Source of the DNA: Bacteroidales bacterium
GTDB lineage: Bacteria; Bacteroidota; Bacteroidia; Bacteroidales; JAADGE01
DNA length: 43,192 nucleotides
Assembly: GCA_021108035.1 (NCBI GenBank)
Contig: JAIORQ010000078.1
Location: 1 to 43,192, forward strand
Direction: 5' to 3'
Shown here: positions 27,562 through 43,192 of the stretch, in pieces
Position numbering within the stretch: the stretch's first letter is position 1
Layout of the letters: the number at the start of each line of letters is the position of its first letter
Made by a program: the position numbers and the translations under genes
The notes under the pieces: model-generated
Seen by the model: the letters and a program-made list of their open reading frames with translations, nothing else
The model's database searches: none
Told to the model about the DNA's origin: nothing

Positions 27562-27636
27562 GGTCCGGTAGTTCAGTTTGGTTAGAATACATGCCTGTCA
27601 CGCATGGGGTCGCGAGTTCGAGTCTCGTCCGGACCG
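27562..27636 (+). tRNA. tRNA-Asp (anticodon GTC)
   Basis: The acceptor stem GGTCCGG pairs with CCGGACC (27629-27635) with discriminator G. The anticodon stem CATGC/GCATG encloses CTGTCAC with GTC, and the T arm is GCGAG-TTCGAGT-CTCGT. The CCA end is not encoded. The 3' part from 27621 is repeated at 43092, marking an integration site. Confidence 0.97.
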
Positions 27637-27670
27637 CAAATTGAAAAGATAAAAACCTGTTAGTCATTAG
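27621..27670 (+). repeat. left attachment repeat (attL) in the tRNA-Asp 3' end
   Basis: This 50-base stretch covers the last 16 bases of the tRNA and 34 bases downstream. It recurs in the same orientation at 43092-43141 with 48 of 50 identical bases (differences at the T after CCGCAAA and at the G in AAAAGAT). A tRNA 3' end repeated at a distance is the classic signature of a site-specific integration by a tyrosine recombinase. Confidence 0.85.
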
Positions 27671-28205: not shown

Positions 28206-28222
28206 TTTTCAAAGTTAAAAAG

Positions 28223-29230: not shown

Positions 29231-29291
29231 TTGTTAATATTTGTTTATTTTAGATTTCAAAGAACAAATTTATCAATTAATAATTAAAAAC

Positions 29292-29345: not shown

Positions 29346-29501
29346 GGGGGATATATAAAATCAAGCATAAATCATGCAGCTGCAACATCAGGCCGGTTTT
29401 TAATAAAAGAACTCATGGGACATGCCTATATAAAAACCTCTATGATATATATTCATACTTCACAAGAACAGATTAGGAAAAAACTGAAAAGCACAAAGTA
29501 A
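29316..29501 (+). pseudogene. tyrosine recombinase (integrase) C-terminal remnant
   Basis: An open frame without a start codon ends in ELMGHAYIKTSMIYIHTSQE, then QIRKKLKSTK and TAA at 29499-29501. This equals the C-terminus of XerD-type integrases, LxGHxxxxTTxxYTH, with the catalytic Tyr in MIYIHTS and His in MGHA. The text before it (NHAAATSGRFL) is a degraded trace of the HxxR box. The body of the gene is gone, so the enzyme is dead. Confidence 0.8.
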
Positions 29502-29503
29502 TA

Positions 29504-29556
29504 TAACTATCTTTCTCCACTTTTGTTTGTAAACCGGCAAAAGATAGTTATCTTTG
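29504..29556 (+). promoter_or_regulatory. promoter with palindromic operator of the AbiE-like operon
   Basis: A perfect 11-base inverted repeat, TAACTATCTTT (29504-29514) and AAAGATAGTTA (29540-29550), flanks the -33 box TTTG (29526-29529) and touches the -7 box TATCTTTG (29549-29556; spacer 19). AbiEi antitoxins are known to repress their own operon through inverted repeats at the promoter, so this is a likely operator. Confidence 0.65.
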
Positions 29557-29573
29557 TCATAAATATATATATT

Positions 29574-30326
29574 GTGGTAAAGGATGTAAAAATAAGTCAG
29601 TTCATTAATTTTTTTAATAACAGTAATCGGATTACGAAGTCTGATATTTGGGAATATTTTCGCAAAACCGAAAAGGATATTACTGAAAATACTTTAAAAT
29701 GGCGTATTCACAATTTAAAAAAAGAGAATGTAATTAAATCTGTCGGCAGAGGTATATATGCAATTACAGATAAAACGGCATACAAACCGGAGCCTGATAA
29801 TTTGTTAAAAAAAGTAAGTAAAATATTCCTGTCAAGATATGATGAGATAAATTATTGTGTTTGGAATTCAAGTTGGTTATACGATTTTATGATTCACCAA
29901 CCGTTTACATCATTTTATGTGTTTGAAGTTGAAAAAGAAGTTTGTAAAGAGACATTTAATTTATTTAAAGATGAAAGCTTAAACGCATTTTATCAACCCA
30001 ACGAAGATTTAATTGACAATTATGTTTCCGGCAGTAAAAATGCAATTATTATTAAACCTCTAATATCAAGGTCGCCAATCAATAAAAAAGGCAGAGTGAA
30101 CATAGCTTCTGTTGAAAAGATTTTAGTTGATATTTATTGTGACCAAGATATTTATCCTGTTTTTAACTTATCTGAACAAGTAAATATTTTTGAAAACATG
30201 ACGGATAGTTACATTGTTAATTTTTCAAAACTTATAAGCTACGCAAAAAGAAGGAATAGGGAAGAAGTTTTGAAAGCTTTTATTAATAATAATTTTGATA
30301 ATTTATTAAATGATGTTTTACAATGA
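29574..30326 (+). CDS. AbiEi-like antitoxin with winged-helix domain
   Basis: About 250 residues from GTG 29574; an upstream TTG at 29523 lies inside the promoter and is rejected. The N-terminal part is a winged helix (VKISQFINFFNNSNRITKSD, then TLKWRIHNLKKENVIKSVGRGIY with the usual RGxY wing), and the rest is the antitoxin body (NYCVWNSSWLYDFMIHQPF, VNIASVEKILVDIYCD). It is related to type IV AbiE antitoxins or the DUF6577 group. A palindromic operator lies upstream, and the reading frame overlaps the toxin by 17 bases. Confidence 0.7.
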   Translation: MVKDVKISQFINFFNNSNRITKSDIWEYFRKTEKDITENTLKWRIHNLKKENVIKSVGRGIYAITDKTAYKPEPDNLLKKVSKIFLSRYDEINYCVWNSSWLYDFMIHQPFTSFYVFEVEKEVCKETFNLFKDESLNAFYQPNEDLIDNYVSGSKNAIIIKPLISRSPINKKGRVNIASVEKILVDIYCDQDIYPVFNLSEQVNIFENMTDSYIVNFSKLISYAKRRNREEVLKAFINNNFDNLLNDVLQ

Positions 30327-31083
30327 TTTTAAAGGAATCATAAAAGGGGATATTCCAAAAGCGCACTATAAGTTTTATTGGACAGAAGAAAGAAAAGATT
30401 ACATTTTGTTAGATATTTTATTTGAGGAGCATAAATATCCTAAAATAATTCAAACCGAAATTCAAACTGATTGGCTAATTTCAGAAGCACCATACTCAAT
30501 TGTTAATATTCCGACAAAAGAAGTAATTCTCGGAGACAAACTGACAGCATTTGCACCTAACACCACAGGAGTTCCTTACGGAAAAAATAAAGAAACAGAA
30601 ATTATTAAACAATTGTTTGATGTTTCTGTTTTAACCGATGAAGTTGATAATCTTAAAATAGTTTACGATTCTTTTATTAAGATTGCAGAAAATGAAATAA
30701 CATACAGAAATCTTAATATTACACCTTCTGATGTATTAGATGATATTTTTGAAACAGTATTACTTATTTCCAAAAGGGAAAGAAATACAACAGAGCCGGA
30801 TAAATCAAAATTTAAAGAATTACAAAAAGGTTTAAGAAGTTTCGGAAACTTCTTGATTAAAGGAGGTTTCAGGATAGAACATGCAATTGAAGCATCTGCA
30901 AAAATTGCTTGGCTTGCCGTGAAATTAAAAAATAGAGATTTTTCTCCTATTACATATTATGATAACAGCTTTAAATTGCAAGAACTAACAAACACAAACC
31001 CTAATTTTGCTCATATTAATAAGCTTAAAAGAAGTAATAACCCGGCATATTATTATTGGTGGAATTGTTTGAATGACTTATAA
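30310..31083 (+). CDS. AbiEii-like nucleotidyltransferase toxin, probably N-terminally truncated
   Basis: This 257-residue protein carries the central and C-terminal parts of an AbiEii toxin: YILLDILFEEHKYP near residue 31, the family block ILGDKLTAFAPNTTGVPYG (73-91) and IIKQLFDVSVL. The N-terminal catalytic segment of the family (GGTAL..., then a DxD-containing strand such as SEDIDL) is absent: the frame begins MMFYNDFKGIIKGD just before the YILLDIL strand. Either the toxin lost its catalytic residues or the start is shared with a rearranged antitoxin end. It is translationally coupled to the antitoxin. Confidence 0.65.
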   Translation: MMFYNDFKGIIKGDIPKAHYKFYWTEERKDYILLDILFEEHKYPKIIQTEIQTDWLISEAPYSIVNIPTKEVILGDKLTAFAPNTTGVPYGKNKETEIIKQLFDVSVLTDEVDNLKIVYDSFIKIAENEITYRNLNITPSDVLDDIFETVLLISKRERNTTEPDKSKFKELQKGLRSFGNFLIKGGFRIEHAIEASAKIAWLAVKLKNRDFSPITYYDNSFKLQELTNTNPNFAHINKLKRSNNPAYYYWWNCLNDL

Positions 31084-31195
31084 TTCTATTGTAAAATGGG
31101 TATATTTCCACTAATGATTTGCCTGATTCCGAATCGTTCTTGAAATTGTTCCGAATTGTTTAAATCCTGATTGTTCTGCTTTATTATACCATTGT

Positions 31196-31343
31196 TCTGA
31201 TTTCGGGCATCTTTGTCAAGTTGAATTGGTTTGTGCAAAAGGTTATTGCCAAGCTCATAAGAATAGGTTTTGGGGGAATGTTAGGGTTGGGATTGGGTTT
31301 TAAAAAATTATGAAAGCATTTTTGCAGGTAATAAATAAATTTT
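31196..31343 (+). repeat. Cys/His-rich coding repeat, copy 1
   Basis: In frame it reads SDFGHLCQVELVCAKGYCQA, then HKNRFWGNVRVGIGF and a stop. The frame is open from 31127 but has no start codon. The downstream part contains the last codons of the DUF4143 ATPase on the other strand. Copies 2 (32714-32863) and 3 (32990-33067) are diverged relatives. The nearest known family is not recognised. Confidence 0.65.
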
Positions 31344-32561
31344 AATTTTTTGGTTATTTGCAACCGGAATAATCTCGTTTCCGGAGTAAAATACATAAGC
31401 TCTAAATAAATCACCTTTGTAGTTTTCTGCAAATTTAAGTATGCCGGCAATATCTTTTTTCCCGATTACTGATTTAGATTTTACTTCAACAGCAATTGTT
31501 TTATTATCGGAATTTTTTAAAATAAAATCAACTTCATTTTTTCTTAAATCTCGGAAATGATAAATATTTACTTTGTCGTTTACAAAACTACTTTGTTTTT
31601 GTAGCTCTGTATAGATATAATTTTCTGTAAGTTGCCCTAAATAGTTTTCTTCTCTGCTGATAAGTTTTTCTTTTGAAATATTTAAAACTGAAGAGGCTAA
31701 ACCGGTATCGGAGAAATGCAGCTTTTTTTGCTTTATAACTTGTTTTACAATGTTTTCGGAATAATTCGGAACTTGTTTAATAATAAACATTGCTTCTAAA
31801 AGTGATATGTATTTTTGAACAGTTTTAAAATCAAGTTGTAATTTTTTTGCAATAGTATTAGTATTTAACAAATTTGAGTTGTTTGCAGCTAAAACAGTAA
31901 CTAAATCAAGCATTCTGTTGTTTTTCTTTATATCGAAGAATATATCTGCATCTTTTAAAATCCTTGATTCTAAATAACTTTTAAACCAAACATCACTGAT
32001 GTCTTTGTCAAGATTTTGCACTTCGGGAAAACCTCCGGAAATTATTCTTTGAATAAAATTATTAAATGATTTATCTTTAAATTTGCTGCTAAAATCAACA
32101 AGTTCTGAAATATTATCAGCAAACATTAATTCAATAATATTTTCGGAATAATTGTTTATTTCTGCAACCGAAAGATTATAAAGTTCGTAATGCAACATTC
32201 TTCCTGCAAGTGATTCAGTAATTCTGACATTTTTATAAAAATCCGATGAACCTGTAAGTAGATACATCCCTTTTTCATTTACGGTATCTACTTTCTGTTT
32301 GATGTACGGAATAAGTTCCGGAGCATATTGAATCTCATCAATAATTATAGGAGAGCTGTAAAAATCAATAAAATTTTGAGGATCTGATTTTGCAGCTTGT
32401 AATTTTTGCGGATCATCTAATGTTATATAATTTATATTTTTTTCTTCTGCTGTTTGTTTTACTAATGTTGTTTTTCCACATTGTCTTGCACCGTTTATTA
32501 AAGTAATACGACTATTGTCAAACCCTTTTATTATTTTACTTTTTGCCTTTCGTTCAAACAT
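31308..32561 (-). CDS. AAA ATPase with DUF4143 domain
   Basis: From ATG 32561 this gives 417 residues; an extended frame starting 96 bases upstream is rejected because a TATCTTTGC box lies at 32579-32571. It has Walker A INGARQCGKTTLV (near residue 22), Walker B SPIIIDEIQYAPE, the sensor block LLTGSSDFYKNVRITESLAGR, a central winged helix and the C-terminal nuclease-like DUF4143 domain (FRDLRKNEVDFILKN, AVEVKSKSV). These ATPases are frequent and often multicopy in Bacteroidota; function unknown. Its 3' end lies in a repeat that is also found beyond its 5' end. Confidence 0.88.
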   Translation of the reverse strand: MFERKAKSKIIKGFDNSRITLINGARQCGKTTLVKQTAEEKNINYITLDDPQKLQAAKSDPQNFIDFYSSPIIIDEIQYAPELIPYIKQKVDTVNEKGMYLLTGSSDFYKNVRITESLAGRMLHYELYNLSVAEINNYSENIIELMFADNISELVDFSSKFKDKSFNNFIQRIISGGFPEVQNLDKDISDVWFKSYLESRILKDADIFFDIKKNNRMLDLVTVLAANNSNLLNTNTIAKKLQLDFKTVQKYISLLEAMFIIKQVPNYSENIVKQVIKQKKLHFSDTGLASSVLNISKEKLISREENYLGQLTENYIYTELQKQSSFVNDKVNIYHFRDLRKNEVDFILKNSDNKTIAVEVKSKSVIGKKDIAGILKFAENYKGDLFRAYVFYSGNEIIPVANNQKIKIYLLPAKMLS

Positions 32562-32570
32562 TTTTTTATT

Positions 32571-32579
32571 GCAAAGATA
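32571..32579 (-). promoter_or_regulatory. -7 box of the DUF4143 ATPase gene
   Basis: TATCTTTGC on the minus strand lies 9 bases upstream of the chosen ATG, so the transcript would be nearly leaderless. No clear -33 box is seen. Confidence 0.5.
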
Positions 32580-32580
32580 A

Positions 32581-33067
32581 GTTTTATTTTTCCGTAATCT
32601 AATTTTTACACCTGCTAATTCCAATTTATACGACATTAAAATCCAAATATTATACAACTAAATTCCGAATTATACCCTTTTAAGTATCCAAAGAGGGCAA
32701 GTTTTTAGGTCAATCTGATTTCGGGCATCTTTGCCAGGCTGAATTGGTTTGTGAAGCCGGTTTTTGTCAAGTTCATAAGAATAGGTTTGGAGGGAATGTT
32801 AGGGTTGGTATTGGGTTTTAAAAAATTATGAAAGCATTTTTGCAGGTAATAAATAAGTTTTATTTTGGTATAATCCAATATTTGCGCATACGAAATCCAA
32901 TTTATACGACATTAAAATCCAAATATTGCACAACTAAATTCCGAATTATACCCTTTAAAGCTACAAAAGAGGGCAAGTTTTTTGGACAATCTGATTTTGG
33001 GCATTTGTGTCAAGCGGAATTGGTTTGTGAAGCCGGTTTTTGCCAAGTTCATAAGAATAGGTTTGGA
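32581..33067 (+). repeat. two diverged 276-bp tandem units with Cys/His-rich coding repeats (copies 2 and 3)
   Basis: The first unit starts at GTTTTATTTT 32581 and the second at 32858. Both contain CCAATTTATACGACATT (32621 and 32897) and the frame QSDFGHLCQAELVCEAGFCQ with HKNRFG (copies at 32714 and 32990). Copies 2 and 3 differ at four codons of HLCQA without amino-acid change (CTT/TTG, TGC/TGT, CAG/CAA, GCT/GCG), showing that this is or was coding sequence. An 89-codon frame from ATG 32828 to 33097 includes copy 3 but begins in the previous unit, so it is likely chimeric. The rest of 32658-33257 holds no other gene. Confidence 0.7.
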
Positions 33068-33257
33068 AAAAACATGAAAATTGAGATTGATTTTTGAAAA
33101 ATTTTAAATTACTTTATTTGGAAGTTAAATGCTTATTTTTTAATTTTGAGAAAATAAAATTTATAATTCTTTATTTTAATTCATTAAGTTTTAAAACATC
33201 ATATTTAATTATGGTATGTAAAACTAAAATGTTTTTTTCTGCAAATAAGTTATTTTA

Positions 33258-34004
33258 ATGCTTGAAATTAAGGACATATATAAATCATTTGGTGAGCAGA
33301 AAGTACTTCAAGGTGCAAATATGTCAATTAAGCAAGGAAAGATATACACAATGGTGGGGGGAAACGGAACCGGGAAAACCACACTTTTTAATTTAATTAC
33401 CGGTTTTCTTAAGCCTGACAAAGGAGAGATTTTGCTTAGTAACAAACGACTTGATAAACTTTCTCCGATTAAAATTAATTCTAAAGGAATTACTAGAACA
33501 TTTCAAGATTTGAGAATTATTAATCAATTAACTGTAAAAGAAAATATCTTATTATCATTCAAAAATAATCCCGGAGAAAAAATATTTAACTCATTTTTGC
33601 CTTACGGGATTTTTAAAAAGAAATATGATGACTTTTTAGAAAAAACGGAATTGATTCTTGAGAAAGTCCATTTGAAAGTAGTTGAGAATAACCTTGCAGA
33701 TGAAATTTCATATGGACAACAAAAACTGCTGACCATCGGATGTTGTCTTGCTAACGATGCACAACTTCTGTTATTGGATGAACCTGTTGCCGGAATTGAT
33801 AAAGATAATTATACAAGAATTTATGATCTGATTTTAGGACTAAAAAAAGAAGGAAGAACTATTTTGCAAATAGAACATAATCACAAATTTGTTGAAAGTC
33901 TATCTGACGAGATTTTGTTTTTAAATACCGGGAAAGTAGTTGCATTTGAGAATTACAAATCATTTGTTAATGACCAAATTGTAAAAGAAACTTACTTTAA
34001 TTAA
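33258..34004 (+). CDS. livG: branched-chain amino acid-type ABC transporter ATP-binding protein LivG
   Basis: This 248-residue cytoplasmic ATPase belongs to the LivG group of the HAAT importers. It has Walker A GGNGTGKT (34-41), the LivG-type segment GITRTFQDLRIINQLTVKEN, signature ISYGQQK, Walker B LLLLDEP and an H-loop in IEHNH. Length is normal. It is the first gene of a row of ten + strand genes; its stop overlaps the livF start by one base. Confidence 0.88.
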   Translation: MLEIKDIYKSFGEQKVLQGANMSIKQGKIYTMVGGNGTGKTTLFNLITGFLKPDKGEILLSNKRLDKLSPIKINSKGITRTFQDLRIINQLTVKENILLSFKNNPGEKIFNSFLPYGIFKKKYDDFLEKTELILEKVHLKVVENNLADEISYGQQKLLTIGCCLANDAQLLLLDEPVAGIDKDNYTRIYDLILGLKKEGRTILQIEHNHKFVESLSDEILFLNTGKVVAFENYKSFVNDQIVKETYFN

Positions 34005-34645
34005 TGTTAGAAATAAAAAACATATCATCCGGTTACGGTAAAAAGCAAGTGCTTTATAATGTTTCTTTACATGTTAAAAAAGGTGAAGTTGTGTTGCTTA
34101 CCGGTGGCAACGGCTCCGGCAAGTCAACTTTATTAAAGTGCATTTATAATCTGCTTCCTTGTTGGTCAGGAGAGATATTTTTCAAAGGAGAAAAGATAAA
34201 CAGTTTAATACCATCTGATTTAATTAGTAAAGGTATTGTTTATATTCCTCAAAAGGATTTCTATTTTGAGAACCTTACGGTTGAAGAAAATCTGCAAATA
34301 TCAGGAAATATTTTACCCAAAACAGAATTAAAAGAAAGAATTGCAGAAGTATATGAATTAACCGGATTAACCAAATTCAGAAAGCGTAAACCCTTTGATT
34401 TAAGCGGGGGGGAACGTAAAATATTGGCATTCTGTATGGGTTTAATTCACAATCCGAAATTTTTATTATTTGATGAGCCGTTTGCCGGTGTAGATGCCAA
34501 AAATACTGCCACTTTACTAAAACTTTTTAAAGAGACAATAATAAATACTGAAAACAGCATAATAATTGTAGAGCATAAAGATGATGCCAAGCAATTATTC
34601 ACTCGAAAAATAAATATGGAATTAGGAATAATTAAATCAAATTAG
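34004..34645 (+). CDS. livF: branched-chain amino acid-type ABC transporter ATP-binding protein LivF
   Basis: This 213-residue partner ATPase has Walker A GGNGSGKS (34-41), Q-loop YIPQKDFYFENLTVEENL, signature LSGGERK, Walker B FLLFDEPFAGVD and H-loop VEHKDD. It is about 20 residues shorter than typical LivF at the C-terminus. It pairs with LivG to drive the LivH/LivM permease encoded downstream. One base separates it from the next gene. Confidence 0.86.
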   Translation: MLEIKNISSGYGKKQVLYNVSLHVKKGEVVLLTGGNGSGKSTLLKCIYNLLPCWSGEIFFKGEKINSLIPSDLISKGIVYIPQKDFYFENLTVEENLQISGNILPKTELKERIAEVYELTGLTKFRKRKPFDLSGGERKILAFCMGLIHNPKFLLFDEPFAGVDAKNTATLLKLFKETIINTENSIIIVEHKDDAKQLFTRKINMELGIIKSN

Positions 34646-34646
34646 A

Positions 34647-35294
34647 ATGGAGAAGAATTTATTGCTTTTTTCAGGTTCTTCTGACCCAACAATGGGGGAG
34701 TACCCAAAACGATATGATTTAATAATTTCGGAAGCAAAAGAGAGAGGGTATAACTATGTTCAATTATTGAATTGGATCGGTCAAAAATCATCGAATACCA
34801 AAGGTGTGTTTTCAATGCAAAACGCATTAATTGATGCAATCCCTACAATTCAGAAATATAATGAATTAAAACATAGTTTTGATATAATTGCATTCAGTTG
34901 GGGGTGCGGTGTTGCTTTAAGAAGTTTGCAATCTTTTGAACACCTGAAATATTTAAATAAAATTATTCTATGGGGAATAACTCCATATTGGAAAGAGTAT
35001 GAGGTAATGGAAATAAATAAATACAAATCAACTATTGATGCTTATAATTATTGTGGATGTATTGTTGATAATGATTATTTCAAACATCAAGTTCCGGTTG
35101 AATACTTATTACACAACTATAATAGAAAAACTCAATTAAAAATTGGTGCAGGATGTAAGGGTGGCGATAATATTTTTTTGAAATATGTTGAAAATATCAT
35201 TGAAAATCCATTAATTAGTTTTTATTACCTTAAAAATATCGGACATGTTGTTACTTCGTTTGATAAAGATTATATTAATTTTATGTTTAATTAA
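34647..35294 (+). CDS. alpha/beta-hydrolase-like protein
   Basis: This 215-residue soluble protein fits a minimal alpha/beta-hydrolase: strand LLLFSGSSDPT at the start, nucleophile elbow IAFSWGCGVAL with Ser84 (small-x-Ser-x-small) and a C-terminal histidine in NIGHVVTS (H200); an acid may be in GGDNIF or IVDNDY. It lacks a signal peptide. Placement between livF and livK with 1- and 16-base gaps implies a role tied to the transported substrate, for example ester or thioester hydrolysis; this is inference. The family is not recognised exactly. Confidence 0.55.
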   Translation: MEKNLLLFSGSSDPTMGEYPKRYDLIISEAKERGYNYVQLLNWIGQKSSNTKGVFSMQNALIDAIPTIQKYNELKHSFDIIAFSWGCGVALRSLQSFEHLKYLNKIILWGITPYWKEYEVMEINKYKSTIDAYNYCGCIVDNDYFKHQVPVEYLLHNYNRKTQLKIGAGCKGGDNIFLKYVENIIENPLISFYYLKNIGHVVTSFDKDYINFMFN

Positions 35295-35310
35295 CTTAAA
35301 TTGAAAAAAT

Positions 35311-36402
35311 ATGAGAAAGTACATTTTATTTATTTTAGCAGCACTTTTATTTTTTTCTTGCGACACATCTAATGATGAAATTGTAATCGGAGCAATTTTA
35401 CCCCTTACCGGTGATGCTGCAAGTTATGGAATATCGGCTAAGGAAGGTTATGAGTTAGCAATCCAAGAAGTTAATTCAAATTATCCTGATAGAACTATTT
35501 TGCTTAAATTTGAGGATAGCAAGGCTCTTCCCAAAGAAGCTGTAAATGCTTACTTGAAATTAAAAAGTACCTTTGCCCCATCAATATTTTTTGGTTTGTT
35601 ATCTAGCCCTGAAGTATTATCAGTTGCTCCTATGGCTGAAAAAGACAAAACAATTATATTTTCGTCAGGGGCTTCTTCACCCTTAATTTCGTTATCAGGT
35701 GATTATATCTTTAGAGATGTACCTTCTGACTTACTTGAAGCCGGGCTTATGGCAGAAACTGCAATTAACGAGTTAGGTATTAATAAAATAGCTATTATCT
35801 ATATTAATAGCGATTATGGTATTGGCGTATTAAATAAGTTTAAAGAAAGATTTGAGGAGTTAGGAGGAGAGTTAGTTGCCGAAGAATCATATAATTCAAA
35901 TCAAACTGATTTTAAGACGTATTTATTAAAAATAAAAAACAGTCAGCCTGACGGTATTTATTTTATTGGTTACAAAGAGCTTGGTCGTATAGTTAAACAA
36001 GCAAAAGAGTTAAATGTAGAAGCTCAATATTTAAGTAATGCACTTTTTGAAGATCCTGAAATATTAGAAATTGCAGGAAATGCTGCTGAAAATTTAATTT
36101 TCACCACCTTTTATTTTGATTCAGAAAGTACAGACCCCAGAACCAGTGAATTTGTTAAGAATTATAAAAATAAATATGGCAAGTCTCCTGATGGTTTTGC
36201 CGTAGCTGCATATGACGCAATACATGTCGTATTTAAAGCATTAGGGAATAAAGAAGTGAATTCAGAGACTATAAAATCAAGCCTGTATCAACTAAATGAG
36301 TTTAACGGATTACTTGGGAAATTTAAATTTGATAAGAATGGTGATGTTATTTTACCTGTTAAATTAAAAATTGTTAAAAATAATGAATTTATCAACTATT
36401 AA
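35311..36402 (+). CDS. livK: branched-chain amino acid-type substrate-binding lipoprotein LivK
   Basis: This 363-residue protein has a lipoprotein signal with lipobox LFFSC (Cys17), so it is anchored in the envelope. The mature part is a type I periplasmic binding protein (Peripla_BP_6): EIVIGAILPLTGDAASYGIS at the start, AVAPMAEKDKTIIFSSG-like VAPMAEKDKTIIFSSGAS, KIAIIYINSDYGIGV and FAVAAYDAIHVVFKAL. It delivers the ligand to LivH/LivM. The ligand could be an amino acid, a short amide or another small acid; the sequence does not decide. Confidence 0.9.
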   Translation: MRKYILFILAALLFFSCDTSNDEIVIGAILPLTGDAASYGISAKEGYELAIQEVNSNYPDRTILLKFEDSKALPKEAVNAYLKLKSTFAPSIFFGLLSSPEVLSVAPMAEKDKTIIFSSGASSPLISLSGDYIFRDVPSDLLEAGLMAETAINELGINKIAIIYINSDYGIGVLNKFKERFEELGGELVAEESYNSNQTDFKTYLLKIKNSQPDGIYFIGYKELGRIVKQAKELNVEAQYLSNALFEDPEILEIAGNAAENLIFTTFYFDSESTDPRTSEFVKNYKNKYGKSPDGFAVAAYDAIHVVFKALGNKEVNSETIKSSLYQLNEFNGLLGKFKFDKNGDVILPVKLKIVKNNEFINY

Positions 36403-36414
36403 TTAATTGTTATT

Positions 36415-36573
36415 ATGCCGGGATATAAAGGAAAAAAGGAATTATTTCCAAAAAAATATATTGATAATTTGAATCAAAAATACTCAAAGCATTTAGATAA
36501 ACTTATCAAAAAATACCAACAAATCAGTTACAATGAGCGAGATATTATCAGAAATTCAGCAAAAGGCAAATGA
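36415..36573 (+). CDS. small lysine-rich ORF
   Basis: The 52-codon frame (MPGYKGKKELFPKKYIDNLN onward) begins 12 bases after livK and overlaps the isoprenyl synthase start by 41 bases. It is very basic and helical in the middle (QKYSKHLDKLIKKYQQ). Its position inside a tight operon supports it, but a chance frame cannot be excluded. Confidence 0.4.
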   Translation: MPGYKGKKELFPKKYIDNLNQKYSKHLDKLIKKYQQISYNERDIIRNSAKGK

Positions 36574-37537
36574 AACAAATGCTTTGATTCTTGATTATAT
36601 CAAACAAAATAATGATATCATTAATCATGATTTGTTTCCTATTTTTGAATATGCACTTGAAATTATTTCAGTTTATCGGGAAAGGGCTTTTATTATTAAA
36701 ACAGTAGGCAGTTACGTTGGCTTGCCGTCAGAAATAATGAAACCTTTAATGATTTCTGCTGAATTGATTATTTTGTCTGCATATATTAAAGATGATATTA
36801 TTGATGAAGCTATAACAAGAGATGGTATGAAGACAGTTCATCAAAAATATGGACTAAAAAGTGCAATTTTGATGTCAGATATTATACTTGGTATTGGATA
36901 CAAATTAATATATGACTCTATCGAAAAATATAAATTAAATTTAGAACTCATAAATTTTATAAACAGAGCTTACCTAAATCTATGTATCGGGCAATCCAAA
37001 AAAAATATTAATATTGTTGACATTTCTCCTGAGAAAGTTGAAAGACTGGCATTTTTAAGAGCCGGTGATATAATAGGAACATTTTCAAGTTTGCCTGCTT
37101 TAATAATTAACGACAAAAAGCTGACTAAATCGTTTTATGATTATGGCAGATGGCTTGGTATTTCTCTTCAATTTAAAAATGATTTTGAAGATTTTTCGAT
37201 TAATGATACTCATTTTGATAATTCAAATTTTCAGGATATAATATTCAAACAGCCGAACATTTTATTATCTTATTTTTCAAATCACTATACTTCCATTACG
37301 AACACAAAAAAAAAGGTATTTGATAAATATTGGGGAAACCAAAATAATTCTTTTGTTTCTCAACAAGATAAAGAACAAATTATAGAACTGTTTGCAGAGT
37401 ATAATATAATAAATGATGCATATAACCATTTGGGAAAATTATGCGAAAATTCTATCCATGCAATAAAAAACCTTAAGATATCACCTGAAAAAACTACTCT
37501 TTTAGAGTTTATTAAACTTATTTATCATTTGAATTGA
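36533..37537 (+). CDS. isoprenyl diphosphate synthase (polyprenyl synthetase family)
   Basis: This 334-residue protein has an isoprenyl-synthase fold. The first aspartate-rich motif is DDIID (87-91) in IKDDIIDEAITRDG, and the second is NDFED (216-220) in LQFKNDFEDF, a weakened DDxxD. Such enzymes condense isopentenyl diphosphate with allylic diphosphates to make polyprenyl chains. Its place inside a Liv transporter operon is odd. The changed second motif could alter chain length or activity. The next gene starts five bases downstream. Confidence 0.8.
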   Translation: MSEILSEIQQKANETNALILDYIKQNNDIINHDLFPIFEYALEIISVYRERAFIIKTVGSYVGLPSEIMKPLMISAELIILSAYIKDDIIDEAITRDGMKTVHQKYGLKSAILMSDIILGIGYKLIYDSIEKYKLNLELINFINRAYLNLCIGQSKKNINIVDISPEKVERLAFLRAGDIIGTFSSLPALIINDKKLTKSFYDYGRWLGISLQFKNDFEDFSINDTHFDNSNFQDIIFKQPNILLSYFSNHYTSITNTKKKVFDKYWGNQNNSFVSQQDKEQIIELFAEYNIINDAYNHLGKLCENSIHAIKNLKISPEKTTLLEFIKLIYHLN

Positions 37538-37542
37538 TTATT

Positions 37543-39045
37543 ATGAGTGAGAAACTAAAAAATATTTTCAACATTAATTATAAGGTAGAAATTGCATTAG
37601 TTCTTTCTATTTTACTTATTGCTTGTTTTTCGACAAATGGTTTAGATTCAGCATACTATGAAATGATAATTTTATTTGTATTAATTATTTTGCTATTTAT
37701 TTGTATTTACATTAAAAAGATATATTCTTTAGTTTTTCCTGTTTATTTATTATTAAGTTTAGTTTTATCCTTATTTACTGCACACTTAGCCTTTAAGTAT
37801 AATAATGTATCAGTTAATGAGTATTGGTATTTCATTGAAGGGATATATAAATATCATTTTTTATATAATCTTATTAGTTTTCTTTCATTTTTATTATTAG
37901 GGATTCTATTTTACAAAAGTAGTTTCGCAAAATACATAAAATTGAAAATACATAATACTCCTATTTATTTTATAAGGAAAATTGCAACTAATACCGAGTA
38001 TTTTATTATTGCAATAATTATTGCAGGTCTTAGCCCTATCATTTTAACTTATTTAGCAAATGACTTATTAGATGAGAAAATTCATGGTTCGTTTCTTGGT
38101 GTTTCTTATACTATAGTTGGAATATTCTTTACTATCCTGATTTACTTCAAGATGAAAGATAAAACAATAACTCTTATTGAGTATATGAATACATTTATTA
38201 GAATATTGGAGCATTCGGCAACAAATGACAAGGTCTTTATAATTGCTCCTACTTTATTCGTAGGTCATGAACATAGTAAAGGGCTACATGGAAGATTTAA
38301 AGAGACATTGTTTGAAAGAATAGAATTGAACGTAGATATTAATATAGCAAACCTGCCTATTCAAAATAAAAAATTGGAACTAATATCTGATTCTGATACA
38401 AATATTTTTTTAAAAAATATTAAATATGGATTGGTAAGGACGGATAAGTTAAGTGAAAAAAATGATAATAAATATAAAAGTGCAAAGAAATTTCTTTTTA
38501 ATAAAGGTTTAGTGCAAAAAAAAATTGTAGATAAAGACGGCATAACTCCAGAAGAAAAGAAAAAGAATGAACTCTTAAGACAAGAAATAAATAAAAATAA
38601 AGGGTTGTTTGATTTTCACTGGGATTATTATAATTTTTTAAATAATAAATCAATGAATGAACGAAAGATTGCTATTCATTATCAAGAACTAATTTCATTT
38701 TATCAAAAATTATTATTCAAATTAGATGAAAATAAGCATAGTAATAAAATAAAGAAACTCCATTGGAATTATTATAATAACCCTTATTTAAATAAATCAT
38801 ATTTTGATAAGGCTAATAATTTCCAAGATAAAAGAGAAAAGGAATCAAATAATTCTTTTAAATCAAATTTTTTTGCTGTTGCTAATGTTACTCAAGGTAT
38901 GTACTATTTTGGTCAATATAGAATTTTCAATGATAGAGATCAAGAATTTCATGGGACTGTCTTTGATAATAAACTTATTGGGAATCAGATGGATAAACTT
39001 TTAAGCGATTTTATTAAAGAATATCCTGAAAATCTAATAAATTGA
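37543..39045 (+). CDS. multi-spanning membrane protein with large cytoplasmic domain, unknown
   Basis: From ATG 37543 this gives 500 residues (a TTG nine bases upstream overlaps the previous stop and is less likely). Six or so hydrophobic helices occupy residues about 15-205. A soluble region from residue 230 begins with the strand KVFIIAPTLFVGHEHSKG and is very lysine/asparagine rich, with two copies of a HWxYYN pattern (FHWDYYNF and LHWNYYNN). The final 50 residues (TQGMYYFGQYRIFNDRDQEF onward) look like a folded domain. I do not recognise the family. Its operon place suggests a partner of the isoprenyl synthase or of the transporter. Confidence 0.6.
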   Translation: MSEKLKNIFNINYKVEIALVLSILLIACFSTNGLDSAYYEMIILFVLIILLFICIYIKKIYSLVFPVYLLLSLVLSLFTAHLAFKYNNVSVNEYWYFIEGIYKYHFLYNLISFLSFLLLGILFYKSSFAKYIKLKIHNTPIYFIRKIATNTEYFIIAIIIAGLSPIILTYLANDLLDEKIHGSFLGVSYTIVGIFFTILIYFKMKDKTITLIEYMNTFIRILEHSATNDKVFIIAPTLFVGHEHSKGLHGRFKETLFERIELNVDINIANLPIQNKKLELISDSDTNIFLKNIKYGLVRTDKLSEKNDNKYKSAKKFLFNKGLVQKKIVDKDGITPEEKKKNELLRQEINKNKGLFDFHWDYYNFLNNKSMNERKIAIHYQELISFYQKLLFKLDENKHSNKIKKLHWNYYNNPYLNKSYFDKANNFQDKREKESNNSFKSNFFAVANVTQGMYYFGQYRIFNDRDQEFHGTVFDNKLIGNQMDKLLSDFIKEYPENLIN

Positions 39046-39072
39046 AATGTCATAGCAAATCAAATTAAAAAA

Positions 39073-39948
39073 ATGCCACAATTAATTGTAAATATTTTAT
39101 TAACAGTAAGTGTTTATCTAATAACTGCTCAATCATTTCTATTAATATATCAAACATCAAAGTTTTTTAACATAGCTCATGCAGCAATAATTACATTTGG
39201 TGCTTATTTTACATTTACTTTTTCTCAAATATTATCTTTTCATATAATTCCTTCAATTGCTTTATCTGTATTCATTTCAATTTTGATAGGAGTTGGAACA
39301 GAATTTTTTGTTTTTCGATTTCTACGTAAGAAAAATAATCATCCCTATATTATGTTAATTAGTTCATTAGGGATTTATATTGTTTTTCAAAATCTTATTT
39401 TAATCATTTGGGGTTCGCAAACTAAATTAATTCGACCTTCACAAGTTAATGTAGGAAATGAATTTTTTGGTGCCTATATAACAGACATTCAAATAAGTAC
39501 TATTATTATTGTTATTCTGCTGTTTACAGGAACAATTGTTTTCTTGAATAAAATAAATTTAGGCAAACAAATGCGTGCAGTTTCTTCAAATAGAGAGCTT
39601 GCAAATATATTTGGAATTAAGTCAAACAACGTTATTCTGTATTCATTTGGTATTGGTTCAGGTTTGGCTGCAATAGCCGGTATTTTAGTTGCATTTGATA
39701 CCGATATGATTCCGACTATGGGTTTTAATTTACTTCTGTATGGTGTTGTAACTATGATAATTGGCGGAATTGGTAGCACCGGAGGTTTAATAGCCGGCTC
39801 TTTATTGCTTGCTAGTGCTCAACATCTCGGAGCATATTATATTGACAGTATATGGATGGATACCATTGCATATATAATTCTAATATTATTTCTAATTTGG
39901 AAACCTTTAGGTTTTAGTGGCAAAAGGCTTAAAAAGATTGAGTTGTAA
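39073..39948 (+). CDS. livH: branched-chain amino acid-type ABC transporter permease LivH
   Basis: This 291-residue inner-membrane permease has the LivH start pattern LLTVSVYLITAQSFLLIYQT, the NIAHAAIITFGAYF block (LivH LAHGAxxMxGAY type), the coupling segment GKQMRAVSSNRELANIFGI and the conserved GGIGSTGGLIAGSLLLASAQ. About eight helices. It is separated from its partner livM by the two Septu-like genes. The following ATPase starts 36 bases downstream in AT-rich DNA. Confidence 0.9.
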   Translation: MPQLIVNILLTVSVYLITAQSFLLIYQTSKFFNIAHAAIITFGAYFTFTFSQILSFHIIPSIALSVFISILIGVGTEFFVFRFLRKKNNHPYIMLISSLGIYIVFQNLILIIWGSQTKLIRPSQVNVGNEFFGAYITDIQISTIIIVILLFTGTIVFLNKINLGKQMRAVSSNRELANIFGIKSNNVILYSFGIGSGLAAIAGILVAFDTDMIPTMGFNLLLYGVVTMIIGGIGSTGGLIAGSLLLASAQHLGAYYIDSIWMDTIAYIILILFLIWKPLGFSGKRLKKIEL

Positions 39949-39984
39949 TTATTTAAATTTGTAAAAAAATTAATAATAATATAT

Positions 39985-41250
39985 ATGTTTTTAAAAGAAA
40001 TACATCTAAAGAATTTCAGGAATTTTGATTCCTTAAGCCTGTCATTTGATAAACAGGATATGAAGAATTCGGTCAGAAAGTGGACTGTTATTCTGGGAGA
40101 AAATGGAACAGGAAAAAGTGGTATATTAAAAGCGATTGCCTTAATAATTATGGGTAGTGATGCATTAGCAGAACTGATCGGAAAACCTGAAGATTGGATC
40201 AAATATGGAAAAGATTACTGTGAAGTTACGGCTGTTATTACAACAAAGGAAAATGAAATCAGCAATTTAAAGCTGCTGATAAACAGGGGCGAATCGCTCT
40301 CGGAGATATTGAAAAAAAACGAAAAATCGTTACAATTAATTGACAGGGCAATAGACCATGCAACAAGAAACTATTTTATTGTAGGATACGGAGCTACAAG
40401 AAAGTTAAGTACCGCAAATATACAAAGCTCGAAACGAAACATTTATCGTTATAACAGAGCACAAAGTGTTGCCACATTATTTAATCCGGACGCATCGCTG
40501 CATTCCCTCGAATCATGGGCAATGGATCTTGACTATCGAAAAGAAGGAAGCGGCTTAAAAACCGTTAAGCAAGCACTTGATAAATTTTTGCCCGGTGTAA
40601 CTTTTTATAAAATTGATAAGGAAAACAGGCAATTGTTGTTCAAAACACAGGATGGTATTATCCCTCTTTCCTTGTTAAGTGATGGTTATCAAAATATGGC
40701 CGGTTGGTTGGCAGACTTATTATATCACGTTACTAACAGTTTTGATGATTATGAAACAGCATTGAAAGCAAGGGGATTATTGTTGTTGGATGAATTGGAA
40801 CTCCATTTACATCCTGTTTGGCAAAAAGAATTATTCACATTTATTAACAGATTATTGCCTAATTTCCAAATAATCACTACCACACATTCTCCACTTACTG
40901 CTCAACAGGCAGGGGAAAACGAATTGATTTATCTGGAAAGAATCAAGGGAAATATTGTCGCTAATCAATTTGAAGGATCGCCCCGGAAACTTCTTTTACA
41001 CCAGTTACTTACTTCTGATGTTTTCGGACTTTCAACTGATGAGTCGGTCTATGTTGAAAAGTTAAAAGCAGAATACAAACAATTAAAGAGCAAAGAAAAG
41101 AAATCTGAAAAAGAGAAAAAAAAGTTAACGGAGTTGAAAGAAAGCATTGAATTGCTGCCAAAAAATCCTATGTCAAACAGTTTTTTAACATCAGAGATGA
41201 AGGACCAGTTAACTGAAATCAGAAAATCACTTAAAAAAGATTTAAGATGA
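39985..41250 (+). CDS. ptuA: Septu-like anti-phage ATPase (PtuA-like)
   Basis: This 421-residue ABC/SMC-like ATPase has Walker A GENGTGKS (38-45) after the RecF-type opening LKEIHLKNFRNF, the signature-like LLSDGYQNM, Walker B LLLLDELELHLHP (D269-E270) and the switch histidine in TTTHSP (H301). The C-terminus is a charged helical tail. With the HNH protein it forms a PtuA-PtuB pair (Septu), a known phage-defence system. The genes overlap by four bases (ATGA). The pair is visibly less AT-rich than the Liv genes, which suggests separate acquisition. Confidence 0.82.
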   Translation: MFLKEIHLKNFRNFDSLSLSFDKQDMKNSVRKWTVILGENGTGKSGILKAIALIIMGSDALAELIGKPEDWIKYGKDYCEVTAVITTKENEISNLKLLINRGESLSEILKKNEKSLQLIDRAIDHATRNYFIVGYGATRKLSTANIQSSKRNIYRYNRAQSVATLFNPDASLHSLESWAMDLDYRKEGSGLKTVKQALDKFLPGVTFYKIDKENRQLLFKTQDGIIPLSLLSDGYQNMAGWLADLLYHVTNSFDDYETALKARGLLLLDELELHLHPVWQKELFTFINRLLPNFQIITTTHSPLTAQQAGENELIYLERIKGNIVANQFEGSPRKLLLHQLLTSDVFGLSTDESVYVEKLKAEYKQLKSKEKKSEKEKKKLTELKESIELLPKNPMSNSFLTSEMKDQLTEIRKSLKKDLR

Positions 41251-42098
41251 TAAAACTGGAAAGAATAAGAACAGAAGAAGCAATCCACGAAAACTTCAGA
41301 GGAGACAAGCGTGTTGAATTTGAAAAAGAGTTGTTGTCAGAACACAGAAAAGTTTGCAGAAAGGAAATTGAAAAGCATAAATTCCCAAGCAAATGGGGTG
41401 TTGTAAAAGATCAGCTTTTTGAAGAAACATTAAAAAAGTGTGCATACTGCGAATCTCCCACAGCTGTTGTAGCATACGGAGATGTAGAGCATTACCGTCC
41501 AAAAAGTAAATATTGGTGGCTGGCTTATAATTATGATAATTATTTGGTTTCCTGCACAATTTGCAATCAAAAATATAAAAAAGCGAAATTCCCCATTTTG
41601 AACCATAAGATGAATGCTCCCCCGATAAAGTCAAATACAACTGATGATTATATTGATAAGAAAGCAGGCTCTTTCACTCCTGATCCCCTGAATAGTAATG
41701 AAGGTTTGGACATAAATGAGTTTATCAAAATGCATAAGGATGAACGTCCGTTACTAATTAATCCCTATTTTGATGATCCGCAGAAATACTTTATCTGGAA
41801 TGTGGATACTACATTGGAAGAAGTTGAATTGGTTCCTGTAACAAATGATGATTTTTCAGAGAAATGTGTCAAAGCTGCGGAAGATGCTTATGGTTTAAAC
41901 AGAGATGAATTGAAAAAACTCAGGTATGAGGTTTATTTAAATTACAGCACACATAAACTGATTGTGTGTTATATTGGAATTCCCGGACCTGTTAAAGAAA
42001 AAAGTCAGATTATAATCAATAGGTTATTGGAAGACAATCAACCTTATGCAGGCATGTTGAAATATTTTGAAAATATACCGGTAACTGAACTACCGTAA
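41247..42098 (+). CDS. ptuB: Septu-like HNH endonuclease (PtuB-like)
   Basis: This 283-residue nuclease has a zinc-bound HNH core: CAYC (65-68), DVEHYRPKS (79-87, the DxEHxRPK motif), WWLAYNYDNYLVSC and CTICNQK (103-109). This text is typical of PtuB and retron-associated HNH nucleases (TIGR02646-like). It is coupled to ptuA by an ATGA overlap. Its stop TAA at 42096-42098 is immediately followed by the livM ATG at 42099. Confidence 0.85.
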   Translation: MIKLERIRTEEAIHENFRGDKRVEFEKELLSEHRKVCRKEIEKHKFPSKWGVVKDQLFEETLKKCAYCESPTAVVAYGDVEHYRPKSKYWWLAYNYDNYLVSCTICNQKYKKAKFPILNHKMNAPPIKSNTTDDYIDKKAGSFTPDPLNSNEGLDINEFIKMHKDERPLLINPYFDDPQKYFIWNVDTTLEEVELVPVTNDDFSEKCVKAAEDAYGLNRDELKKLRYEVYLNYSTHKLIVCYIGIPGPVKEKSQIIINRLLEDNQPYAGMLKYFENIPVTELP

Positions 42099-42959
42099 AT
42101 GGAATATATTCTGCACATATTAATTATGATTTTACTGTATGTAATGCTCTCCCAAAGCCTTACATTAACTGCCGGATATTCCGGTTTAATCTCTCTTGCT
42201 CATGCCGGTTTTTATGGAATTGGTGCTTATACATCTGCAATACTTTCTGTAAATTACGGTCTTCCTTTTTTGGTAACTTTACCATTAGCAATGTTAATAA
42301 GTGGAATACTTGCAGTTTTTGTTTCTGTTATTGCCTTACGAACTGTTGATGATTATTTTATTATTATCACTCTCGGCATTCAGGTTGTTGCTTTTTCTGT
42401 TATGAACAACTGGATGGATTTAACCAATGGTCCGCTTGGTATTCCGGGTATTCCGGTAATTTCAATTTTGGGGTTTGAGTTAAGCAGCAAAATATCATTT
42501 CTTATTCTTGCTTTAATCTTAACTGCTTTAACGTTCTACCTGCTCAGGAACATTACAAAATCTCCTTTTGGACGGATTCTAATTGCCCTAAGCGAAGATG
42601 AAATCTTTACTAAAAGCCTTGGCAAAAAAGTTTATCTGGCAAAAATTACCGGGTTTACTATTGGTGCAATGTTCGCTGCAATTCCGGGTGTTTTATATGC
42701 ACATTACATAAGTTACATTGATCCTACAAGTTTTACGGTTGACGAATCCATTTTTATTTTATCAATTGTAATTATTGGGGGTATGAGAAATTTATGGGGT
42801 TCGGCAATTGCAGCAACAGTTTTAATTATTTTACCGGAAGCATTAAGATTTATAGGAATGCCAAGCAATATTGCAGCAAATATGAGACAAATAATATATG
42901 GGCTTGCACTTGTAATTATGATGTTTAAATTTGGTAAAGGTTTTGTAACTAAAAACTAA
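42099..42959 (+). CDS. livM: branched-chain amino acid-type ABC transporter permease LivM
   Basis: This 286-residue inner-membrane permease has the LivM opening MLSQSLTLTAGYSGLISLAH, then GAYTSAIL, the LRTVDDYFIIITLGIQ segment, the coupling region GRILIALSEDEIFTKSLGKK and the typical SIVIIGGMRNLWGSAIAAT and MRQIIYGLALVIMM ends. It completes the transporter with LivH, LivG, LivF and LivK. The ATG directly abuts the ptuB stop, so its translation may depend on the Septu genes. Confidence 0.9.
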   Translation: MEYILHILIMILLYVMLSQSLTLTAGYSGLISLAHAGFYGIGAYTSAILSVNYGLPFLVTLPLAMLISGILAVFVSVIALRTVDDYFIIITLGIQVVAFSVMNNWMDLTNGPLGIPGIPVISILGFELSSKISFLILALILTALTFYLLRNITKSPFGRILIALSEDEIFTKSLGKKVYLAKITGFTIGAMFAAIPGVLYAHYISYIDPTSFTVDESIFILSIVIIGGMRNLWGSAIAATVLIILPEALRFIGMPSNIAANMRQIIYGLALVIMMFKFGKGFVTKN

Positions 42960-43091
42960 CAATCATAATAAGAATTGAAAATTGAGACTTATTTAAGAGT
43001 CCAAACAGACCTCGTGATATATTATTGATATAAATTATTTTTTTAACAATACAAGTGATAGGTAGTCAGCGAGTTAATGTGTTTCAATCAA
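42960..43091. other. intergenic tail between livM and the right repeat
   Basis: AT-rich DNA without a supported gene or a strong terminator hairpin. Confidence 0.4.
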
Positions 43092-43141
43092 AGTCTCGTC
43101 CGGACCGCAAACTGAAAAAATAAAAACCTGTTAGTCATTAG
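43092..43141 (+). repeat. right attachment repeat (attR)
   Basis: This repeat matches 27621-27670 at 48 of 50 bases, covering the last 16 bases of tRNA-Asp (AGTCTCGTCCGGACCG) and the left arm of its terminator. No complete tRNA is present here. The match begins and ends sharply. The remaining bases to the window end (43142-43192) contain no identifiable gene. Confidence 0.85.
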
Positions 43142-43192
43142 GGACATTCGGGAAATATAAGAAATTCAAAAAAATCAGTCTGAAATTTTGGC

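Follow-up and report, generated by a model that had tools for sequence, protein, structure and literature searches.

A Liv-type importer operon of a Bacteroidales bacterium whose binding-protein gene appears to be exchanged together with its neighbours

Gene organization of the importer cluster

The window, i.e., the entire 43,192-nucleotide stretch that was analysed, contains a cluster of ten genes, all confirmed and all on the plus strand, in which five Liv genes are interleaved with five non-Liv genes. The importer genes encode a LivG-type ATPase (33258..34004; PF00005, 4.4e-30), a LivF-type ATPase (34004..34645; PF00005, 1.2e-32), the type-I periplasmic binding protein LivK (35311..36402; PF13458, 3.4e-53; PDB 3td9, 2e-45), a LivH-type permease (39073..39948; PF02653, 4.3e-34) and a LivM-type permease (42099..42959; PF02653, 4.3e-40). 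By Pfam, this is the make-up of a HAAT importer, with two BPD_transp_2 permeases, two ABC ATPases and one type-I binding protein, and the families, gene order and coordinates bear out the earlier claim that all five Liv components are present and interleaved with non-transport genes. The Liv names follow gene order and Pfam family membership; no curated NCBIfam cut-off was reached by any of these proteins, and the top models, each under its cut-off, were LivG and UrtE for the two ATPases and UrtB for LivH, the two Urt models being those of urea importers. LivH and LivM are the only BPD_transp_2 proteins found in the genome. The lipoprotein-type Cys17 of LivK is invariant in six of six aligned sequences. 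Ser99, which we take to be a pocket residue, is Ser in 31 of 36 LivK proteins, and the position that presumably holds the usual acidic amine-binding residue is Asp or Glu in 11 of the 36 and Ala in the window LivK.

The first non-Liv gene (34647..35294) belongs to no Pfam or NCBIfam family. Its structure model (pLDDT 74.3, pTM 0.79) has alpha/beta hydrolases as best Foldseek PDB matches (E about 1e-6, TM 0.50-0.72), and Ser84, Asp174 and His200, our own assignment of the catalytic triad, are kept in its single known relative in a two-row alignment. This relative is encoded next to a radical-SAM giant and a receiver-like protein, in a gene group that belongs to a different type of importer. A search for hydrolase relatives on plasmids gave nothing useful, and a giant protein from a Nostoc plasmid did not match the giant proteins carried by the related loci described below. 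LivK is followed by a polyprenyl synthetase-fold enzyme (36533..37537; PF00348, 4.9e-19, and motif comparison) and a 503-residue membrane protein (37534..39045), for which hydropathy indicates six hydrophobic segments in residues 14-205 and then about 300 further residues. Pfam, PADLOC and NCBIfam searches of the membrane protein revealed no kinase or other known domain, single-sequence queries found no relatives, and its AlphaFold model was unusable (pLDDT 38.9). These three genes agree with the sequence-only reading; the other two of the five extra genes proved to be a Septu pair. The spacings of 0 to 36 bases, or overlaps, described in that reading hold except between LivK and the synthase, where a 130 bp gap contains a 52-codon ORF (36415..36573, plus strand), a candidate only that may be no gene.

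Promoter-like matches occurred at chance level (62, where shuffled sequences gave 60.1, sd 7.6), terminator-like sites numbered 7 vs 3.5 (sd 2.2) after shuffling, and a tandem repeat search gave nothing informative. The contig ends at 43192, shortly past LivM.

Septu pair and flanking tRNA repeats

The Septu pair consists of a PtuA ATPase (39985..41250; PADLOC PDLC00295, 5e-130) and an adjacent PtuB HNH nuclease (41247..42098; PDLC00339, 4.2e-32), and scored below the cut-offs of retron-type NCBIfam models. As in Septu (PtuAB), the two genes are adjacent and overlap by 4 bases; the difference is their placement within a transporter operon, at the LivH-LivM junction, where the first base of LivM directly follows the last base of PtuB (42098/42099). 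In related operons LivH runs directly into LivM, with an overlap of 1 base in L041, L042, L043 and L046 and of 4 bases in L044. The pair looks like a separate insertion and is predicted to be an independent defence module. Because Septu stands as a module by itself and the two permease genes overlap in relatives, a reading in which all ten genes act together was rejected; the ten genes probably do not form one functional unit. Defence or toxin modules were also found at other Liv junctions, i.e., PDC-S02 in L065, HerA in L071 and AbiE in L069. AbiE and HipA-like genes neighbour the cluster in the window.

The cluster lies between two tRNA-Asp repeats. A tRNA-Asp(GTC) gene was located at 27562..27637 (plus strand; ARAGORN, Rfam), and its last 17 nt together with 33 nt downstream form the left direct repeat (27621-27670, plus strand). 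The right copy of this tRNA 3' end (43092..43141, plus strand) is identical at 48 of 50 positions and lies 15471 bp away, a direct repeat of the tRNA 3' end at the far boundary, as would be expected of a tRNA-site integrative island. The larger ORFs that lie between the two repeats include no integrase-like gene, and 51 bases of contig follow the right repeat. Near such loci elsewhere, tRNA genes were found in one of 32 fetched stretches.

Comparison of the prenyl synthase with ComQ

ComQ prenylates the ComX signal of Bacillus. The window synthase, a member of the polyprenyl synthetase family, has an intact first DDxxD motif (DDIID) and a ComQ-like pseudo second motif (NDFED). ND occupies the second motif in both LivK-adjacent synthases, and DD is found there in 19 of 19 other synthases from nine genomes; since the comparison synthases were chosen by a pattern that included the first motif, only the second offers a fair comparison. 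Section 7 of PMC5331326 states that ComQ requires ND or GD (NDxxx/GDxxx) at this position. By its motifs the window enzyme is ComQ-like, and prenylation of Trp is a putative activity. One further genome (L034) also has LivK next to a prenyl synthase, with kinase- and receiver-like genes after it (HATPase and receiver matches below cut-off). The first DDxxD motif of the L034 synthase is lost, and the LivK proteins of the two synthase loci are just 28% identical.

The 52-codon ORF encodes no Trp and no Cys, so no ComX-like peptide is seen there. Among ATG ORFs of 20-80 codons with Trp in the last 12, the plus strand of 36301-39100 holds one, of 39 codons, inside the membrane protein gene. The locus lacks an adjacent pre-peptide of 52-73 residues with Trp near the C terminus, as in ComQXPA, and a ComX-like peptide was dropped as a candidate. 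Family searches likewise gave no ComP-type kinase or ComA-type regulator, and no kinase domain in the membrane protein of the window. Compared with Bacillus ComQXPA (PMC4008528, PMC5331326), the window shares the synthase fold, the intact DDxxD, the ND second motif and a multi-helix membrane protein adjoining the synthase, and L034 shares the kinase- and receiver-like genes after the synthase; the window differs in having no peptide with a C-terminal Trp, a membrane protein without a kinase domain, and an ABC importer. The abstract of a 2014 census reports no ComQXPA outside Firmicutes (PMC4008528).

Related operons carry different genes beside LivK

LivM relatives with 81-91% identity occur in four other genomes. 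LivM-like importers are uncommon here, in line with the sequence-only reading: of 393 genomes in the order, 13 match the window LivM at E<=1e-20, the genome of the window included, a count of matches to this LivM that more distant HAAT permeases would escape. Across LivM relatives from 91% to about 30% identity, the importer is kept and the LivK-adjacent genes (the cargo) differ. The cargo includes radical-SAM and B12-radical-SAM proteins, methyltransferases, PLP enzymes, RelA/SpoT, GGDEF, TIR and kinase/receiver-like proteins. In all 37 loci with a LivK and a gene string (mechanical ORFs on the same strand with gaps <=250 bases), a non-Liv ORF adjoins LivK. A recognisable small-molecule enzyme is present in 30 of the 37, radical-SAM in 19 of those 30; signalling, regulatory or nucleotide-handling domains occur in eight loci, with TIR/SEFIR or RelA/SpoT in three (L043, L051, L058). 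No enzyme was recognised in the other seven, of which L070 and L080 were not put through Pfam. In L035 and L036, LivK is paired with a TonB-receptor-like protein. About 70 cargo proteins of the relatives were given to Pfam, out of a total of 145 non-Liv ORFs of >=130 residues.

The 37-locus set is made up of loci with a found LivK, and therefore omits L031, L033, L045, L057, L059, L061-L064, L069, L073, L079 and L082; also outside are L041, where a contig end leaves a fragment of LivK, L038, on a contig of 3 kb, and L039, whose LivK score was weak; the last two look uninterrupted where seen. Some loci share a genome (L044/L054/L081, L051/L056 and L058/L080). All 23 titled records are metagenome assemblies, and a search for related loci in viral contigs gave nothing useful.

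Non-transport genes thus recur inside or beside related Liv operons. A neighbourhood search, proposed in the sequence-only reading, supported the association for the synthase (L034) and for the general pattern; for the membrane protein, single-sequence queries gave no relatives. The premise that Liv operons are normally limited to transport genes did not survive, as enzymes flank the Liv block in seven of the eight judgeable comparison HAAT loci (nine fetched). The Liv block itself is uninterrupted in all eight. Compared with HAAT (Liv/Urt) operons, the present ones have the same five components with family-typical Pfam domains, but their importer genes are interrupted in 26 of 37 loci and LivK is decoupled from LivM. 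A further system with a variable region was also compared; a periplasmic-binding-protein domain is possible in that region, the core genes differ as far as the available passages show, and the words ABC transporter and solute-binding are absent from its paper's text. No description of operons like the present ones was found in the portion of the open-access literature searched.

LivK follows its neighbours rather than LivM

Among 157 pairs from 31 loci with LivM identity >60%, the median LivK identity is 33% (25-48), whereas in six ordinary comparison pairs of two operon types (LivM >=58%) LivK lies within 1-3 points of LivM. The 31 loci exclude L036, L053, L058, L060, L070 and L074, where LivK or LivM was short or fell outside the gene string. 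For 15 of 36 loci, the locus with the most similar LivK also carries a homologue of a LivK-proximal gene, vs 2.2 expected, and none of 5000 permutations reached 15; L070, whose LivK has 158 residues, belongs to the 37 loci and not to the 36 LivK of the pocket and neighbour tests.

The LivM data reject the cargo-sharing groups {L042,L054}, {L043,L058}, {L052,L068,L076} and {L050,L060} (p_AU <=0.006), in tests that left out the long branches L035, L037 and L080 and used quick trees, with groups picked after the LivK identities were known. In the LivK tree, likewise a quick one, {L042,L054}, {L043,L058} and {L050,L060} are starred sister pairs; L052-L068 is also starred, and L076 and L075 join it in a starred group of four. 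L052, L068 and L076 have a radical-SAM neighbour in common. There are counter-cases: the LivK proteins of L051 and L071 are 57% identical and share no cargo, and the starred LivK group {L030,L035,L049} has no shared cargo. From these comparisons, LivK and the neighbouring genes appear to be swapped as one cassette, as they would be if every receptor were specific for a molecule connected with the adjacent enzyme.

Discussion

The reading we prefer, at slightly less than even probability, is a HAAT importer with an exchangeable cassette, probably for signalling, with Septu as an independent insertion. The cassette would comprise LivK as receptor, an enzyme producing or altering a small amino-acid-like ligand, and a responder inside the cell or in its membrane. 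In the window, the ComQ-like prenyltransferase would prenylate a small acceptor, and the product would leave the cell and be captured by LivK, whereupon LivHMGF would import or sense it. The hydrolase may trim or destroy the product, and the six-helix membrane protein may be the responder. Other genomes would use the same scaffold with different enzymes and responders, like signalling dialects, and Septu would have inserted at the LivH-LivM junction as a defence module of its own. The gene anatomy, its recurrence, the exchange of LivK along with adjacent genes and the ComQ-like motif are observed; we infer that LivK binds what the enzyme makes, that this product is secreted and that the cassette has a signalling output.

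Co-movement of LivK and cargo would also arise in nutrient uptake, if LivK takes up an outside substrate that the cargo enzymes process, the two moving together because they share it. The metabolic enzymes flanking most comparison HAAT loci and the TonB-receptor-like partners of LivK in L035 and L036 are consistent with this reading. However, radical-SAM or B12-radical-SAM proteins in 19 of 37 loci, together with RelA/SpoT, GGDEF, TIR and kinase/receiver-like proteins, are not catabolic, and LivK is as similar as LivM in the six comparison pairs; we consider nutrient uptake unlikely, though the strongest of the rivals. Slightly less probable is an insertion hot spot, i.e., an operon often hit in mobile islands by inserts without a common function. 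The tRNA-Asp repeats around the cluster and the defence or toxin modules at Liv junctions (Septu here and those of L065, L071 and L069) point that way, as does GC, which varies by gene from 0.236 (membrane protein) to 0.348 (PtuA), although 0.241-0.354 is the range over 31 other genes of the window. An exchange that takes in LivK along with the adjacent genes would not be expected of a passive landing site, and the recurrence of radical-SAM enzymes also argues against it.

The same junction modules, the TIR/SEFIR and RelA/SpoT cargo, and the AbiE and HipA-like neighbours in the window would suit an immune or competition sensor, in which LivK would sense a molecule that is foreign or stems from damage, and TIR, RelA/SpoT or Septu would halt growth or kill. 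This is the least probable alternative, and a rather improbable one, as the recognised cargo is largely of biosynthetic type and TIR/SEFIR or RelA/SpoT is confined to the three loci named above. More tentative than the exchangeable signalling cassette itself is the wider proposal that these operons of Bacteroidota and related bacteria form a class of communication systems, polymorphic and coupled to an importer, that has not been described before, with a prenylated amino-acid-type signal as the window allele.

Unlike the comparison HAAT operons, this importer operon has a swapped receptor and a near-constant permease. If LivK and the neighbouring enzyme are matched, each locus would identify an enzyme together with a receptor for the product or the substrate of that enzyme. 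Such pairs would help to find ligands for radical-SAM enzymes that are still uncharacterised, and might reveal a form of communication between bacteria. Under the wider proposal, interchangeable cassettes would give neighbouring strains different chemical dialects, and the window allele would extend isoprenyl signalling beyond Firmicutes.

A Liv operon with interleaved genes

The Liv cluster of the window (33258-42959, forward strand) lies on contig C78, which ends at 43192, of a 4.96-Mb genome. It runs LivG, LivF, an alpha/beta hydrolase, LivK, a prenyl synthase, a 503-residue membrane protein, LivH, PtuA, PtuB and LivM, with successive intergenic gaps of -1, 1, 16, 130, -4, 27, 36, -4 and 0 bases. 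A genome search for BPD_transp_2 proteins found LivH and LivM and no others. The five Liv names rest on Pfam family and layout, because all five proteins fall short of the curated NCBIfam cut-offs. Matches to LivH were found in 8 of 79 genomes at E<=0.001 (own genome counted), and in one of 13 congeners.

The genes between LivH and LivM were identified by PADLOC as PtuA (5e-130) and PtuB (4.2e-32). In the closest relatives no gene separates LivH from LivM, their ends overlapping by one base (L041, L042, L043 and L046) or four (L044); the simplest reading is thus that the Septu pair was inserted here. GC content in PtuA and PtuB (0.348 and 0.345) is near that of LivM (0.340) and exceeds the values for LivH (0.291), the synthase (0.270) and the membrane protein (0.236); this is weak evidence for insertion, because 31 other window genes range from 0.241 to 0.354. 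Other modules occupy Liv junctions elsewhere: PDC-S02 in L065, HerA in L071, AbiE in L069, and what we take by eye to be PIN-like or HicAB-like toxin genes in L045, L060, L070 and L073. LivH and LivM share a gene string in 33 loci, window included; this junction is occupied in seven of them. In L045 (8207-10828, on the contig also holding L027), only the first 96 residues of LivF remain, joined in frame to LivM, reflecting a deletion or an assembly error; a two-gene toxin-like insert lies behind its LivG.

Recurrence and cargo of related operons

LivM searches found relatives at E<=1e-20 in 13 of the order's 393 genomes, and the species-genome collection gave 23 loci, fragments among them. At E<=1e-60, hits came from 6/98 and 16/294 genomes of two other classes and 14/395 of the phylum. 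All these sets overlap and include the source genomes of the queries. Most of these assemblies are labelled Bacteroidia or Bacteroidetes, Chlorobiaceae, Ignavibacteriae or Kapaibacterium; three labelled otherwise (L042 Proteobacteria, L050 Eubacteriaceae, L062 Verrucomicrobia) may be misbinned.

Gene strings were drawn for 37 LivK-bearing loci from mechanical ORFs on the same strand with gaps <=250 bases. A non-Liv ORF immediately adjoins LivK in all 37, and in 26 other genes break up the Liv block. The Liv order is G-F-K-H-M in the window clade; alternatives are H-M-G-F-K followed by cargo (non-Liv genes) and cargo followed by K-H-M-G-F. On a Nostoc carneum plasmid (L087), H-M-ATPase-LivK precedes a 975-residue hypothetical protein, a layout like that of the Bacteroidota giant loci; this protein had no sequence match in the cargo set.

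Enzyme cargo was recognised in 30 of the 37 loci. Radical-SAM or B12-radical-SAM enzymes account for 19, nine by Pfam (L030, L032, L042, L044, L047, L048, L051, L052, L055) and ten by similarity to these, directly or via another protein (L037, L050, L060, L065, L068, L071, L072, L075, L076, L078). Eleven loci (window, L034, L043, L046, L053, L054, L056, L067, L074, L077, L081) carry a methyltransferase, aminotransferase, PALP enzyme, class-II tRNA-synthetase-like protein, prenyl synthase or thioesterase. No enzyme was recognised in L035, L036, L049, L058, L066, L070 and L080, the last two lying outside the Pfam scan; the partner in L035 and L036 is a TonB-receptor-like protein. Signalling, regulatory or nucleotide-handling domains occur in eight loci: RelA/SpoT (L043, L058), SEFIR (L058), TIR (L051), GGDEF (L049), sigma54-type (L047), metallophosphoesterase (L050 and, by similarity, L060), and HATPase (E=3e-5) with receiver (E=0.0013) in L034, both under Pfam cut-offs. 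A sequence search of the PDB found no relative of the L034 kinase-like protein.

LivK is exchanged together with its neighbours

The sequence-only reading had suggested that importer, synthase, hydrolase and membrane protein may form one system. Comparison across loci establishes a recurrent cassette structure in which LivK is exchanged along with neighbouring genes. LivM is 92% identical between L049 and L054, LivK 21-22%; across 157 pairs (31 loci) with LivM >60%, median LivK identity is 33% (25-48). Among 36 control pairs from nine plasmid HAAT loci, the six with LivM >=58%, which stem from two operon types only, show LivK within 1-3 points of LivM.

L050 and L060, which have both cargo genes in common, are 68% identical in LivK and 83% in LivM. 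In permutations adjusted for LivM identity, 13, 11 and 3 of 2000 reached the observed excess at cargo E <1e-15, 1e-30 and 1e-50 (unadjusted, 40, 19 and 3). Of 31 classed loci, 14 had the same enzyme class as the locus with the nearest LivK (5.6 expected; 11 of 5000 permutations), and of 36 loci, 15 shared a homologous LivK-proximal gene with it (2.2 expected; 0 of 5000); stricter cut-offs gave 10 against 1.4 (0 of 5000) and 6 against 0.9 (5 of 5000).

Groups starred in a quick LivK tree were {L042,L054}, {L043,L058}, {L050,L060}, {L052,L068}, {L051,L071}, {L052,L068,L075,L076} and {L030,L035,L049}; the window and L034 were not united. The LivM data rejected all six groups tested: {L042,L054}, {L043,L058}, {L052,L068,L076}, {L050,L060} (p_AU 0.006), {L051,L071} (p_AU 0.002) and {window,L034}. 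In reverse, three LivM-based groups were tested on the LivK data; two were rejected and {L049,L054} was not (p 0.087). Counting against a strict LivK-cargo rule, L051 and L071 have 57% identical LivK yet no common cargo detected, and none was detected in {L030,L035,L049}, a group containing long branches.

The synthase, hydrolase and membrane protein

The window synthase belongs to PF00348; its first motif reads DDIID and its second NDFED. Among 21 PF00348 proteins from nine genomes, comparison proteins being picked by first motif, the second motif begins ND in the window and L034 enzymes, both adjoining LivK, and DD in the other 19. According to PMC5331326, ComQ, which prenylates a tryptophan of ComX, keeps the first motif, and its second must have N or G, then D, DDxxD being unsuitable. 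Like ComQ-ComP-ComA, L034 has a synthase followed by kinase-like and receiver-like genes; unlike it, L034 is without ComX. Because its first motif is lost, the L034 synthase may lack the same kind of activity. LivK of the window and L034 are only 28% identical. Because a search beside the window synthase found no peptide with a C-terminal Trp, its acceptor would be a small molecule rather than a peptide.

Modelling places the window hydrolase among the alpha/beta hydrolases; it matched in one other genome of 228 (34%). That relative belongs to a cluster at 7258-19499 of L116, where it lies between permease-like and ATPase genes of a different, non-HAAT ABC importer, the importer type and permease being read by eye. 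Next come a radical-SAM-like giant of 1798 residues related to that of L076 (1e-145) and a protein that by eye is receiver-like and includes an ATPase-like part. Six hydrophobic segments lie within the first 205 residues of the membrane protein. Searches of the genome and sequence collections gave no relatives of it; its position suggests that it may be the responder.

Island boundaries and other window features

The last 17 bases of a tRNA-Asp and 33 downstream (27621-27670) are repeated 15471 bp away at 43092-43141, where 48 of 50 bases agree (score 45, against <=14 in 200 shuffles). HipA-like genes, AbiE, an AAA_14/DUF4143 gene and the Liv cluster lie between the repeats (27562-43141 overall); the larger ORFs there included no evident integrase. 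At the end of the contig, 50 bases (43141-43190) show a 94% match to another contig of this genome, C84.

An identical 40-nt repeat (27671-27710 and 29292-29331) flanks two HipA-like genes, suggesting that these are an inserted unit of their own. The AAA_14/DUF4143 gene is flanked, and in part overlapped, by repeats 153 nt long (69-90% alike) and 276 nt long (81% alike) at 31196-31348 and 32556-33142, which reach to just upstream of LivG. Further upstream, one ORF (16965-18839) is, by eye, an unusual fusion of a cyclic-nucleotide-binding domain and an aspartase/fumarase-type lyase. Two small adjoining genes (18821-19704) appear to be a nucleotidyltransferase/HEPN-type pair. An Imm53-like immunity protein (16169-16951, E=7.6e-13) adjoins a LuxC-like acyl-CoA reductase (15125-16126, E=8.1e-8).

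Ligand and function

Pocket positions of LivK, putatively assigned by analogy with leucine-binding protein structures, include the usual carboxylate-binding serine, kept in 31 of 36 aligned proteins, and the usual acidic amine-binding position, where 11 of 36 have Asp/Glu and the window protein has Ala. This pattern would fit ligands with a constant carboxylate-like group that differ elsewhere. Matched nutrient use seems rather unlikely, that the locus is a passive hot spot slightly more so, and immune sensing is the least probable of the readings weighed. We tentatively favour, as the likeliest, the reading that the cassette makes a small molecule and senses it as a signal.
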